Below are positions 22,904 through 28,266 of a stretch of DNA of 64,000 nucleotides, piece after piece. The notes under the pieces were generated by a model, which was not told the DNA's origin, searched no databases, and saw only the letters and a list, made by a program, of their open reading frames with translations. The translations under genes were made by a program, and so were the position numbers. This DNA is from Chthonomonadaceae bacterium (GTDB lineage: Bacteria; Armatimonadota; Chthonomonadetes; Chthonomonadales; Chthonomonadaceae): contig DAIDKH010000012.1 of assembly GCA_027450145.1 (NCBI GenBank), positions 1 to 64,000 on the forward strand, written 5' to 3'. The stretch's first letter is position 1. Each line of letters starts with the position of its first letter.

Positions 22904-24226
22904 TTACCCAAGTGATCGGACGATTAGTCCGCTGTATAGTTTGGGATAGAAAAACGTAGACTTCTGAGGCATCTTGTCACCCGCAGAAGCAACATCTCTG
23001 ATATCTTTAACCGATGGCGTTTGCAGGATGCAGGCCACGTCTATGTCGCCCGAGATAATCAACTGTAACGCCTCTGCTGCGTCGCGTGTGTACGATATGT
23101 CCGGGGTGGTGGCCATATCTGCCCATTTAAGACCAAAGGCAGGTTCTAGCACCAGTAACTGAAGTATTGTCACATCAAGCTCGGCCCAAGCTCGGCTATG
23201 TTGAGCGGCCTCTGGCATCGACTTAATCCCATTTGCTTTGAGCGTCAAGCATAGCGCATTCTCTTTAGTGAGGATGGTAAATTTCTGGTCGTCACTTCGA
23301 GGTTGAGAGATCCAGGCAAGAGCCTCGGTGTGTCCTCTCTCCTCTATTACAAAGCAATCTGATAACACAGCACGAAGTCCCGCTAGTCTCTCACGGCTAA
23401 CGTTCTTAACAAGCCGATGTGTAGGAAGGACCACGAGACCGGGATCCTCGAAGGCGCTAAGACCTATCATGATGCTGTCATAGTCTTGCTGATCGCGCGG
23501 ATCGCCTTCCTCTGCTCTACGCTCAGCCTGGTAATTTAAAGCGGTCTCATAGCGATGATGTCCATCTGCAATCCATATTCGGTGGCCTTCAAAGAACTCA
23601 CTTATCTTGGAAACAATATCCGGGCTGTTATGTCGGTAAACCGTGTGGTGCTCGGTGTGAACCGCACCTGGCCCCGAGTAATCTGTATCCAATATGCATG
23701 TAGCATCTTCGCGTGCGCTGGCAAGCAGTGATGTAAGTACACAAGAACTATCCTCATACAGCCCGTAAATTGGCTCCGGGTTGGCGTGCGTAGCCCGCAT
23801 GAGATTTAATCGATCTGTCTTGGCTTTTGAGAGGGTCTCCTCGTGTGGTAACACAACACCGCTATTGTAATTCTCTAACTTAAGAGCTGTAAGCAGCGTA
23901 GTTCGCGAAACAGAAACGGAACTATCTAAGGGGTGAGGAAAGGTCTGAATATACTCGTAGAAGGCTGGCTCGACATCGCTCATTATGTGGTTGTGCGCAC
24001 GCATATCATGTAGATATGCCGCTGCGCGAAGGTATCTGTTATCGCCAGGCAAGTCGTGCGGCGTCTCACGATTTAGTATTAAGCGGACAATATTAAAGAC
24101 ACTTCGCGTGTAAAGTTCGTCCTGGTCAGCAGGGGAAAGAACATCATACGGTGGAGCAATGGCGTCTTGCAACGGTACCAAATCGGTGTTGAAATAGAGA
24201 CCTTTAAACGGTCGAACAGTAGCCAT
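22904..24226 (-). CDS. DUF1015 family protein
   Basis: Predicted cytoplasmic protein of about 440 residues belonging to the DUF1015 family, whose members often sit near serine or sugar metabolism genes but have no proven activity. The opening RPFKGLYFN...APPYDVLSPAD is typical, as is WIADGHHRYETALNY (residues about 215-230) and the preceding H-rich stretch. I place the start at ATG 24226 (MATVRPF...), where the family normally begins; the frame is open to 24334 with a non-matching extension. No obvious operon partner. Confidence 0.8.
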   Translation of the reverse strand: MATVRPFKGLYFNTDLVPLQDAIAPPYDVLSPADQDELYTRSVFNIVRLILNRETPHDLPGDNRYLRAAAYLHDMRAHNHIMSDVEPAFYEYIQTFPHPLDSSVSVSRTTLLTALKLENYNSGVVLPHEETLSKAKTDRLNLMRATHANPEPIYGLYEDSSCVLTSLLASAREDATCILDTDYSGPGAVHTEHHTVYRHNSPDIVSKISEFFEGHRIWIADGHHRYETALNYQAERRAEEGDPRDQQDYDSIMIGLSAFEDPGLVVLPTHRLVKNVSRERLAGLRAVLSDCFVIEERGHTEALAWISQPRSDDQKFTILTKENALCLTLKANGIKSMPEAAQHSRAWAELDVTILQLLVLEPAFGLKWADMATTPDISYTRDAAEALQLIISGDIDVACILQTPSVKDIRDVASAGDKMPQKSTFFYPKLYSGLIVRSLG

Positions 24227-24383
24227 CAGAAATCTAGATCCTTTCGTGCCAGCGGCGCATTGCACTTGATTACTTAGGATATTGTACCTTGTGAAATCAG
24301 TGCCTAATCGATTGGTCAAATTGGGTAGTTGCAAATCACTTGCTGATATGAAAATCGGACCTGAGGTAGACCGTAGGTCGAGT

Positions 24384-25595
24384 CTATCGGGGTTGATCCG
24401 GTAGTTCCAACCGTTTCATGTTCCGAATCACGCTGAAATCTGGTATTGCCAGCACCTTAAGCTTGACCGCGTGCCTTTTGCCATTACGGGAATACACGAT
24501 TGGTACTACTTGCCCAGCAAGCAATTGTTGGGAGGCGTTTCGCACGTCTTGCGGGCGCTCAACCGCCACGTTATCAAGCATAAGAATGCGATCACCAGGA
24601 CGAATACCGGCCTTGTAGGCTGATCCGCCAACGAAGACTGCTTTTACAATTGCTTTGAGATGGTCGTGCGAAAGAAACAGCCCAAACCAGCCTGGCGCAG
24701 GGAGCATTGTGGATGTTCCTTTGCGAAGCTGGATGACGGCAGCCTCCACCAATGGTGCGGGGAGAGCAAAGCCAGTCATCGAGCCGGCAAGCAATGGAGG
24801 TAGGGCAGGAAGTGGATGATGCGCATCACCTCGTACATCCCACGGCGCCGGCGGTGACCAGCTTGAAACACCCACCAGCATTCCTACCACTCGTCCATGA
24901 GCATCGATAAGCGGGCTGCCGCTACTACCGGCGCCCACGTTGCCTTGAAACTGGAGAAGATGGTGATAATGCCACCGTCCATCTGTGGATCGAGCGGAAC
25001 GCCCATTGGATGCAATGATACCAAGAGTTGCAGAGTTTGGGAAGCCGCCTTGCTCGCCGATTGAGATAACAAGTGAACCTGAGCGAGGGGGAGCATCTTG
25101 GGAGAATAGTAAGCCAGGTATTGGAAACAGCGGGTGAATGCGCAATAGCGCTACGTTATCCCTTACGTTGTAGGCCACGGAACTGGCTTTAAGTTGCCAT
25201 CCGTTGGCGAGTACGATGTAGGGATTAGCAACTCCCTGTACGACTTCTGCAGTTGTTACAACGTATCCGTCATCAATGAAAAACCCACTTCCAATGGTAG
25301 GAACGGGGTGAAAGAGCTGTTTGCCCCGCGAGGCAACCGACGAGAGAGCCCTGCCGCGAATGGAGACCACGTAAGGATCTACATGGGCGACTAATGTCTG
25401 CAGCTCATTGCTTAGTGCAACCATTGTAGGGCAGGAAAGGACAGTTTGCATTTTGATCGCATCCTGCCCTCGTTCACGATCTGCCGAGTTGGACCGAGCG
25501 TCATTTGTAGACGGCGGTGTCGCAGGAACTGCGATTGCTGCAACCGGAACACAAAGTATGAGAGCACTTACGAACGATGCCAGTAACCCACGCAT
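24384..25595 (-). CDS. HtrA/DegP-like protein with PDZ domain; catalytic His replaced by Glu
   Basis: Exported trypsin-like protein of 403 residues: signal peptide (1-22), chymotrypsin-fold domain (about 65-270) and one PDZ domain (about 305-395, with AGIRPGDRILMLDN). In the usual GYVVTNNHVV block this protein has GYVVTTAEVV, so Glu117 (codon GAA) stands where the catalytic His should be. Asp146 (RDNVALL) and the nucleophile Ser225 (GSSGSPL) are present. Classical proteolysis is therefore doubtful; a chaperone or sensor role is possible. Its ATG overlaps the anti-sigma gene stop (TAATG), placing it in the ECF sigma operon like RpoE-controlled degP genes. Confidence 0.85.
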   Translation of the reverse strand: MRGLLASFVSALILCVPVAAIAVPATPPSTNDARSNSADRERGQDAIKMQTVLSCPTMVALSNELQTLVAHVDPYVVSIRGRALSSVASRGKQLFHPVPTIGSGFFIDDGYVVTTAEVVQGVANPYIVLANGWQLKASSVAYNVRDNVALLRIHPLFPIPGLLFSQDAPPRSGSLVISIGEQGGFPNSATLGIIASNGRSARSTDGRWHYHHLLQFQGNVGAGSSGSPLIDAHGRVVGMLVGVSSWSPPAPWDVRGDAHHPLPALPPLLAGSMTGFALPAPLVEAAVIQLRKGTSTMLPAPGWFGLFLSHDHLKAIVKAVFVGGSAYKAGIRPGDRILMLDNVAVERPQDVRNASQQLLAGQVVPIVYSRNGKRHAVKLKVLAIPDFSVIRNMKRLELPDQPR

Positions 25596-26413
25596 TAATA
25601 TGGGGTATCCGGTCCGTAGGGGTCTGGTTGCAGTGCAGACATTACGTAATGCGCGTCTCCACCATCCGAACTGGCAGAAACAAGGGTTGCTTGTTGCTGC
25701 AGATCATTGATGGTCGTGTTCTGGCGGTGATCACGGGCTACCGGAGAATTTATATTGTGCGAAGGTGACTTTATGTCCCTGTAGTGCTTGCTAAAAGTTT
25801 TGGCCGGTGGCGTTATATTGGCGATGAGCGCCAACGTTGCATCTTCGAATCCCAAGCGAGCGGACTGGCTTCCACGATCTGAATGCTGCTTTGCAACTTG
25901 AGTATTATCGCGAACTTCGATAATACGCGTTACAGTTTTAGGTGCAGAAGGGCGCGATTTTCGGACAGCAGTGGATTTGGGTACCGACAGAACTGCTACT
26001 TTTTGTGGGGCAGCTTGAACCGTATGGTAATGAACATTCACTGGCTGAGGTTTGGCGAGTAGCAACATGATTACTGCCGCGGCAGTACCACCAACAGCAG
26101 ACCAGAGGAGGGGCCCCGTTCTGTACGGCGTTTTTTGCTGTACTTGCGAAATCATCTGTACAGGAGGCGGCAGCTCTTCAAGGACTGCGCGCAATCCTGC
26201 CCAGTCTAATGTTGGTTCGGGCAGGCGATTGCCCCTGCCACCGCTGATCAACTTTTGCGCAGATTTATACTCAGCTAGCTCTTTGCTACAGGTTGAACAC
26301 CGCGCGATGTGAAATTCAAGTTGTTCCATTCGCTCTTCGGGAAGGCGGGCTGCCGCGTAGTCCCAGAGAAATGGCCGAAGCTTACGACATTCTAGTTTTG
26401 TTATCAATCTCAT
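25595..26413 (-). CDS. Zinc-finger anti-sigma factor, single membrane span
   Basis: 272-residue membrane protein. The N-terminus has the ZAS pattern Cys9 ... His35-x3-Cys39-x2-Cys42 (FHIARCSTC). One membrane segment near residues 102-122 (LLWSAVGGTAAAVIMLLLA) separates it from a periplasmic tail of about 150 residues rich in basic residues, Ser and Gln. This fits an anti-sigma that holds the ECF sigma encoded 28 bases upstream. Release probably depends on regulated cleavage or an envelope signal; the neighbouring HtrA-like protein is a candidate partner. The tail is not recognised. Confidence 0.85.
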   Translation of the reverse strand: MRLITKLECRKLRPFLWDYAAARLPEERMEQLEFHIARCSTCSKELAEYKSAQKLISGGRGNRLPEPTLDWAGLRAVLEELPPPVQMISQVQQKTPYRTGPLLWSAVGGTAAAVIMLLLAKPQPVNVHYHTVQAAPQKVAVLSVPKSTAVRKSRPSAPKTVTRIIEVRDNTQVAKQHSDRGSQSARLGFEDATLALIANITPPAKTFSKHYRDIKSPSHNINSPVARDHRQNTTINDLQQQATLVSASSDGGDAHYVMSALQPDPYGPDTPY

Positions 26414-27026: not shown

Positions 27027-27081
27027 AGCTTTTCCAGCTTTTTAGTAGATTATTCTTATTGACGAAACAGGAATCATTCCG

Positions 27082-28266
27082 TTATCGTGCTTGATTCATC
27101 GTGTTCAAAAAACTAGTTCCGTGACTGCCAACAGGCAGATTGTAAGCCTGCCGAATAGTCGCCGCGATATCTGCGTAGGTTTCTCGGCTGCCGAGATCTC
27201 GTCCCGAGCTGAGATTTGGGCCAGTGACGAGCAAAAACGGATATTCTCGCGAGTGATCGGTAGATGGGGTGGTTGGGTCATTACCGTGATCGGATGTAAT
27301 CATGAACAGGTCACCCGGGCGAAGTGCAGCCAGAATTCCCGGTAGGGCGGTGTCCCAGGTTTCTAGTGCATGCGCCATTCCCTCGGGATCATTACGGTGT
27401 CCATAGAGCATGTCAAAATCTTCCAGGTTGGCAAAAATGAGCGGGCTCTGGTTATCTTGAACGGCGCGCAATAATGCTTGGGTATGAGCGGCATTGTTCG
27501 TTGTGTGGTCCCAGGTGGTGATAGATCGGCCGTTGAATATCTCGAAGATCTTCCCGATGGCATGTACCGTCCTACCGCTCTCAACTACGTCGTCTAGCAC
27601 AGTTCTAGGCGGGTCTAGAGGGAAATCCTTGCGCCGTTCTGTTCGCGTGAAATTGCCAGGGCTTCCGGTGAACGGACGGCAAATGACTCTGCCAACAGCA
27701 TGCTTGTTTACCAAGATCGACCTTGCGGTAGAGCATATTGCGTATTGTTGATCGATTGGATAGATGTCTTCATGCATCGCTATTTGGAATACGCTGTCCG
27801 CCGACGTGTAGACAATCGGTTTGCGTGTTTTTAAATGTTCAGCGCCTAATTCGGCAATGATTGTGGTGCCCGAAGAAGGGTAGTTGCCCAAAGTAGAGGT
27901 ACCGATTTTCCCTTCAAACTCACGTATAACTTCCGGCGGAAATCCGTGAGGATAGGTAGGAAATGGCTGGTCTAAAACTACACCGGACATCTCCCAATGT
28001 CCAGTAATCGTGTCCTTACCCGGTGATGCCTCGCGCATGCGACCCCAACAGGCCGATGCCGTTGGGCATGGAGCAACACCTTGTATGCTCGTAACATTGC
28101 CTAAGCCCATTGCCTGCATTGTGGGGACGGAAAGCCCACCTACTTTGTGCGCGGTATTGGCGAGAGTGTTACTACCTTCATCGCCGTAAACACTGGCGTC
28201 GGGAAGTTCACCTGCGCCCACGCCATCTAGCACGGCAATAATAATACGCTTTATCTCCTGCTGCAT
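27082..28266 (-). CDS. deoB: Phosphopentomutase
   Basis: Interconverts (deoxy)ribose 1- and 5-phosphates in nucleoside salvage. 394 residues from ATG 28266, which has GAGGGG 8 bases upstream; a longer frame from 28299 has no ribosome site. Metal ligands of the alkaline-phosphatase fold are seen in IIIAVLDGVGAGELPDA, MITSDHGNDPTTPSTDHSREYP (written as ITSDHGNDPTTPSTDHSREY) and the phospho-acceptor threonine in KDTITGHWEMSG. Its product links to the purine and pyrimidine genes upstream on the same strand. Confidence 0.96.
   Translation of the reverse strand: MQQEIKRIIIAVLDGVGAGELPDASVYGDEGSNTLANTAHKVGGLSVPTMQAMGLGNVTSIQGVAPCPTASACWGRMREASPGKDTITGHWEMSGVVLDQPFPTYPHGFPPEVIREFEGKIGTSTLGNYPSSGTTIIAELGAEHLKTRKPIVYTSADSVFQIAMHEDIYPIDQQYAICSTARSILVNKHAVGRVICRPFTGSPGNFTRTERRKDFPLDPPRTVLDDVVESGRTVHAIGKIFEIFNGRSITTWDHTTNNAAHTQALLRAVQDNQSPLIFANLEDFDMLYGHRNDPEGMAHALETWDTALPGILAALRPGDLFMITSDHGNDPTTPSTDHSREYPFLLVTGPNLSSGRDLGSRETYADIAATIRQAYNLPVGSHGTSFLNTMNQAR

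Follow-up and report, generated by a model that had tools for sequence, protein, structure and literature searches.

An HtrA-like protein of 403 amino acids, encoded within an ECF sigma factor operon of a Chthonomonadaceae bacterium, lacks two of its three catalytic triad residues (His and Asp), and Ser225 is the only one left. Comparison with relatives indicates that this triad loss is a conserved trait and not decay, and the protein is very probably a non-protease. The gene lies in the window, by which we mean the whole stretch of 64,000 nucleotides that was analysed, and the features discussed below are collected in Table 1. The reading that we somewhat favour from the sequence data is that the dead HtrA is an envelope regulator devoted to the ECF sigma/anti-sigma pair of its own operon, wherein its PDZ domain would hold the tail of the anti-sigma factor and so regulate the proteolysis of that factor.

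Table 1. Features of the ECF sigma operon in the window, with the basis for each.
Feature	Position	Strand	Basis
HtrA-like pseudoprotease ORF, 403 aa	24384..25595	minus	intact ORF; Pfam; AlphaFold2; Foldseek
Dead protease core, residues 96-245	24861..25310	minus	Pfam; remodelled cleft; purifying selection
Glu117 (GAA) at catalytic His position	25245..25247	minus	ORF sequence, alignment
Asn147 at catalytic Asp position	25155..25157	minus	phmmer alignment, spacing, paralogues
Ser225 (AGC) at catalytic Ser position	24921..24923	minus	sequence; GSSGSPL context
PDZ domain, residues 298-385	24441..24704	minus	Pfam; carboxylate-binding loop motif W303-F-G305-L intact
zf-HC2 anti-sigma factor, 272 aa	25595..26413	minus	ORF; PF13490
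Anti-sigma transmembrane segment (predicted), residues 102-120	26054..26110	minus	hydropathy
Last 22 anti-sigma residues, GGDAHYVMSALQPDPYGPDTPY	25598..25663	minus	proposed PDZ ligand (C-terminal Tyr) and YV[MI] motif
ECF sigma factor, 194 aa	26442..27026	minus	ORF; Pfam and NCBIfam
ECF-type promoter GATAAC-N16-CGTC	27061..27086	minus	upstream of sigma gene; kept in 9/9 E-type operons

A degenerate HtrA active site and its distribution

The protein begins with a hydrophobic N-terminus (a signal peptide or anchor), which is followed by the dead trypsin-like domain and one PDZ domain. This is the architecture of HtrA/DegP (S1C) proteins, wherein a trypsin-like domain precedes at least one PDZ domain. 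A Pfam scan recovers Trypsin_2 (4.8e-22) together with PDZ_6 and PDZ_2 (both about 2e-8). The AlphaFold2 model has a mean pLDDT of 81, with values over 90 across most of the protease and PDZ cores, and its Foldseek matches are DegP, DegS and AlgW. The closest solved structures to the protein are those of DegP, HTRA2, DegS and AlgW. The PDZ loop W303-F304-G305-L306 has the X-hydrophobic-G-hydrophobic pattern for carboxylate binding that is characteristic of the DegS type; W-x-G is kept among relatives, and G305 is invariant in 45 aligned sequences.

The first-pass annotation had proposed that Glu117 replaces the catalytic His within GYVVTTAEVV, that no single base change could restore the His, and that Asp146 and Ser225 are retained. 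The first two statements hold, as the GAA codon is two changes away from a His codon, and Ser225 is indeed present, with GSSGS in the place of the G-N-S-G-G of S1C proteases. Asp146, however, is not the catalytic Asp. The catalytic His and Asp are H198 and D228 in HTRA2 and H105 and D135 in DegP. The two residues of HtrA proteins are thus spaced by 30 positions, as can be counted for HTRA2 in the phmmer alignment, and 117 plus 30 gives 147; the same alignment pairs Asn147 with the Asp of DIATL/DVAVL. Spacing and alignment therefore place Asn147, rather than Asp146, at the Asp position. Intact HtrA paralogues from the same genome (contigs 17 and 9) have H/D/S at the triad columns, with Asp at column 147, and column 146 is variable (D/A/N/S/L/T/M).

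When 291 Armatimonadota genomes were searched with a profile, members of the dead HtrA group were found in family f1, to which both the window's genome and the single-contig genome G007 belong, in families f16 and f19, and in one f33 genome. There are no members in the remaining Armatimonadota families at that score level, and a sharp gap separates the full-length members (322-442 bits) from the next HtrAs (264 bits at most). A search of genome contigs with the single protein gave only one match, which is a contig of G011.

Alignment with homologues from the same sigma operon, a check that the first-pass annotation had proposed, reveals that the missing His is common to the whole clade of relatives. 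It is absent in 45 of 45 aligned sequences, and Asp or Glu stands in its place in 43 of them (D 24, E 19, S 1, N 1). Position 147 is almost as uniform, with Asn or Gly in 44 of the 45 (N 29, G 15, D 1). The resulting triads are E-N-S or D-N-S in the 19 f1 relatives, with one S-N-N, D-N-S in f19, [E/D]-G-[P/Q/S] or E-N-P in f16, and N-D-S in G227. The S-N-N protein, which has Ser at the His position, is that of G010 (L043), the most degenerate f1 member, and its operon partners lie beyond the contig end. The HtrA consensus is also gone at positions 115, 182, 216-218, 221, 224, 227 and 240, and on the evidence of the alignment the substrate cleft is remodelled by more than one mutation. The possibility that another His fills the active site was considered and rejected: there is no conserved His column near the site in the window's family, in which position 174 is the sole His-rich column (8 of 19).

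These alignments also bear on the idea of a still-active peptidase whose catalytic group has been rearranged, for example to Glu/Asp-Asn-Ser. Such an enzyme could draw on Ser225, on the oxyanion Gly223, which is kept in the window's protein, and on the nearly universal acid at position 117, and residual chemistry is conceivable in f1, f19 and f33, where every member except that of G010 has Ser225. Nevertheless, we regard this idea as very improbable. In 13 of the 16 aligned f16 relatives the Ser has changed to Pro or Gln while the acid at 117 is kept, so this acid is not retained to activate the Ser, and the cleft positions listed above have lost the HtrA consensus in addition.

When the triad columns are removed, the dead proteins fall on one side of a branch and the intact HtrAs on the other. 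The trees are quick and unrooted, with SH-aLRT support and no bootstrap. Support for the dead clade is 88 in a tree to which 33 intact HtrAs contribute, the top-scoring ones among them, and rises to 99 when the two long branches (G227 and G247) are omitted; it is 94 with the whole active-site neighbourhood removed. A single loss of catalysis is favoured, albeit not proven. G247 (L073:3230-4801) encodes a 523-amino-acid HtrA-like protein with an R/R/A triad that is located outside any sigma operon. This protein groups with the intact HtrAs on the trees and is probably an independent pseudoprotease.

The window's protein and its G011 counterpart share 95% identity in the dead protease core, where 89 of 150 codons nonetheless differ synonymously, and 92% identity in the PDZ domain. 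This degree of identity despite so many synonymous changes indicates that the core is under strong purifying selection and that the protein is functional. A degenerate triad that is retained by selection, the mark of a MamO-type pseudoprotease, is thereby found here. The earlier proposal of a functional non-protease is strongly supported by the universal lack of the His, the remodelled cleft, the lack of a conserved His column and the purifying selection. Although the window's source is a draft genome of 168 contigs, in which a decaying gene or a sequencing or assembly error might be suspected, the chance of either is negligible. Another 18 members of the family and three additional families show the same state, E-N-S recurs in the single-contig genome G007, and the gene is under selection, such that the comparative data refute decay or error as the cause of the triad loss.

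The sigma operon and the tail of its anti-sigma factor

The gene is intact, coupled to the anti-sigma gene and part of an ECF sigma operon, as had been recognized in the first-pass annotation. The full 403-amino-acid ORF shares a single base (25595, within TAATG) with the anti-sigma ORF, and Pfam identifies the ECF sigma and zf-HC2 genes upstream. The anti-sigma factor has the features of its class, namely an N-terminal zf-HC2 domain (PF13490, 23.4 bits against a cut-off of 22.2), one predicted transmembrane segment and an adjoining ECF sigma gene. The genes are ordered sigma, anti-sigma, dead HtrA at all loci on contigs of sufficient length (f1, f16, f19 and G227). Downstream of the dead HtrA gene in the window is a DUF1015 gene (22904-24334, minus strand), with the same arrangement in G011, and another DUF1015 gene (L047:2479-3798) is convergent with, and adjoins, a D-type copy. 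The f16 genomes have a second operon composed of sigma, a zf-HC2 anti-sigma and an intact H/D/S HtrA (L074:3121-5891, L066:3134-5971). In G166 and G171 this intact-HtrA operon is located directly beside the dead-HtrA operon and served as a natural control.

The extracytoplasmic region of the anti-sigma factor is nearly unalignable between relatives; its last residue is fixed within groups. All nine E-type operons have Tyr there, eight of the nine D-type operons have Trp, and all 17 f16 operons have Phe. Two of the D-type tails and one of the f16 tails were read after the pattern had been stated, and all three fitted. An aromatic end (Y, W or F) is absent from all 30 of the remaining zf-HC2 ORFs of f1 genomes, of which 6 were read away from the exact match and are less certain. 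The anti-sigmas of the f16 operon whose HtrA is intact have polar ends (EIQR, ETLR or MGWR). There is also a Y-[VIL] motif some 12-26 residues before the anti-sigma end.

The last 22 anti-sigma residues of the window and G011 are identical (22/22) with 10 synonymous codon changes, and the linker is 52% identical. The f16 tail overlaps the signal peptide of the HtrA in another frame (L074:1120-1187, and other f16 loci), wherein the Ser-Phe of the anti-sigma is invariant and the residues in the HtrA frame vary, and the anti-sigma frame is thus the constrained one. The Trp codon of D-type operons shares bases with the [AG]TG start codon of the gene that follows, and this overlap may account for part of the Trp conservation.

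Because the carboxylate loop of the PDZ domain is intact and a ligand-like residue is conserved only beside a dead HtrA, we infer that the anti-sigma tail is probably the PDZ ligand. The first-pass annotation had suggested that the protein may act on the anti-sigma factor as a PDZ sensor; the conserved operon and the conserved last residue lend this suggestion circumstantial support. The main misfit comes from f19, where the last residue is Glu in 10 of 10 cases, in the form of Val/Ile-Glu (L054-L064), which would be an unusual PDZ ligand and a poor fit to a simple hydrophobic pocket. The G227 tail ends in Leu. Covariation of the PDZ pocket with the last anti-sigma residue, viewed by eye in the alignment, followed no clear rule. 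In a structure prediction of the anti-sigma factor the tail is disordered (mean pLDDT 60), a result that carries no information on binding.

Other proteins with a PDZ domain might read this end instead, such as an intact HtrA, RseP or a Prc/Tsp-type tail protease, with the dead HtrA modulating that protease in the manner of MamO and MamE. There is a precedent in that MamO activates MamE-dependent proteolysis non-catalytically (PMC4794232), and intact HtrAs and an M50 protease are encoded in the genome. We nonetheless give this scheme only a small chance, since the other anti-sigmas of the same genomes lack an aromatic end and the trait follows the partner encoded in this operon.

The sigma factor is inferred to autoregulate its own operon through the ECF-type promoter in front of the sigma gene. 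The G008 genome contains no exact match to GATAAC-N16-CGTC other than the one before the sigma gene. Exact promoter matches over the whole genome do not exceed those of a reversed-pattern control in three of four genomes, and lone matches elsewhere are weak. Sites common to the window's genome and G011 are found in front of the operon, an HlyD-type adaptor and a small secreted-looking protein, and G007 has sites in front of an HlyD-type adaptor and of an LTXXQ (Spy-like) protein whose gene is close behind the site (L144:375-1493). The predicted targets fit an envelope-stress regulon. Most D-type operons seem, when inspected by eye, to have TGATACGC-N15/16-CGTC instead upstream of the sigma gene (L042, L044, L045, L046, L048). 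This -35 element differs from the GATAAC of E-type operons, which suggests that the promoter specificities of the paralogous sigmas have diverged.

The predicted regulon offers some support for a simpler role, wherein the dead HtrA works in the periplasm as a chaperone or holdase, is merely co-regulated by the sigma factor and makes no contact with the anti-sigma. HtrA chaperone activity is independent of proteolysis, as is generally known for DegP (PMC11642142), and an LTXXQ/Spy-like protein and HlyD-type adaptors are among the predicted targets. This role is unlikely, though the strongest of the competing accounts, and it leaves unexplained the conservation of the last anti-sigma residue, a trait that neither the other zf-HC2 ORFs nor the f16 operon encoding an intact HtrA shows.

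A candidate mechanism and its known counterparts

If the dead HtrA is a regulator that holds the anti-sigma tail, the following scheme can be envisaged. The anti-sigma factor would span the membrane, and the terminal aromatic residue of its extracytoplasmic tail would occupy the groove of the PDZ domain, and the Y-V-[MI/L] motif close by may be gripped as a pseudosubstrate by the cleft of the dead protease. The bound tail would be shielded from intact site-1 proteases, for which the other HtrAs of the genome are candidates. Perhaps misfolded outer-membrane proteins, which may also be aromatic-ended, compete for the PDZ domain and cause the tail to be released. The freed anti-sigma would then be cut by the site-1 protease and subsequently by an RseP-like M50 protease, and the sigma factor would induce its regulon, including its own operon. 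The same genome encodes an RseP-like M50 protease and an Omp85 protein that ends in Phe, so the remaining parts of such a pathway are available.

The net effect would be that the ligand sensor of DegS is kept and is given a protective role like that of RseB/MucB without cutting. A protective rather than an activating function is put forward tentatively, since DegS and RseB/MucB, taken as analogues, make it the best-fitting option (PMC8545111). More speculative is the complete picture of a non-proteolytic DegS, in which the anti-sigma bears its own C-terminal PDZ ligand, the dead HtrA latches onto it, the C-termini of misfolded proteins compete, and the cleft is a pseudosubstrate clamp held by the conserved carboxylate at the old His position.

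The arrangement is reminiscent of DegS-RseA in E. coli and AlgW-MucA in Pseudomonas, where a one-PDZ HtrA-type protein faces the membrane anti-sigma of an ECF sigma factor in the way that is proposed here, and the predicted envelope-stress regulon and autoregulation extend this likeness. The PDZ domains of the DegS/AlgW type read hydrophobic C-terminal peptides such as YxF and WVF (PMC8545111). Unlike in those systems, the HtrA described here is dead and is encoded inside the sigma operon, and the PDZ-type ligand is apparently carried by the anti-sigma itself. The 403-amino-acid protein scores 77 bits with the DegS model TIGR02038, whose cut-off is 423. The mycobacterial sigE-rseA-htrA operon has the same order of ECF sigma, anti-sigma and HtrA genes, but its HtrA has an intact H/D/S triad, whereas the one described here is dead and scores 33 bits against the cut-off of 800 for SerProtHtrAMycob (NCBIfam).

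The magnetosome protein MamO is another HtrA pseudoprotease, in which an HtrA fold without a working triad is selected for a non-catalytic role (PMC4794232). It differs in that His116 and Asp149 are kept and Thr225 stands for the Ser, and in having two-His metal binding, a TauE-like domain and no sigma operon (PMC4794232); its model NF040961 (NCBIfam) gives 28 bits with the 403-amino-acid protein against a cut-off of 800. The role proposed for the dead HtrA, which is to shield the periplasmic part of an anti-sigma from site-1 cleavage, resembles that of RseB/MucB. These are lipid-binding proteins (PMC8545111) and not HtrAs, and they share no Pfam family with the dead HtrA.

Dead HtrAs (MamO, PMC4794232) and HtrAs that regulate ECF anti-sigmas (DegS, AlgW) are both already known. 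A search of the open-access literature returned no report of a dead HtrA within a sigma operon, and no paper that ties Armatimonadetes/Armatimonadota to ECF or anti-sigma factors. The automated annotation of these proteins is serine protease, which would mislead the inference of pathways. The conserved last residue of the anti-sigma factor makes a direct and cheap binding test possible.

The HtrAs of sigma/anti-sigma systems have hitherto been understood as cutters. This lineage has kept the HtrA scaffold, the PDZ domain and the overlap with the anti-sigma gene, and has dropped the residues that cut. If the proposed role is true, it would show that ligand sensing can be separated from proteolysis, much as pseudokinases did for kinases, and the comparisons made here suggest that several Armatimonadota families possess a stress switch in which sensing depends on binding rather than on cutting.
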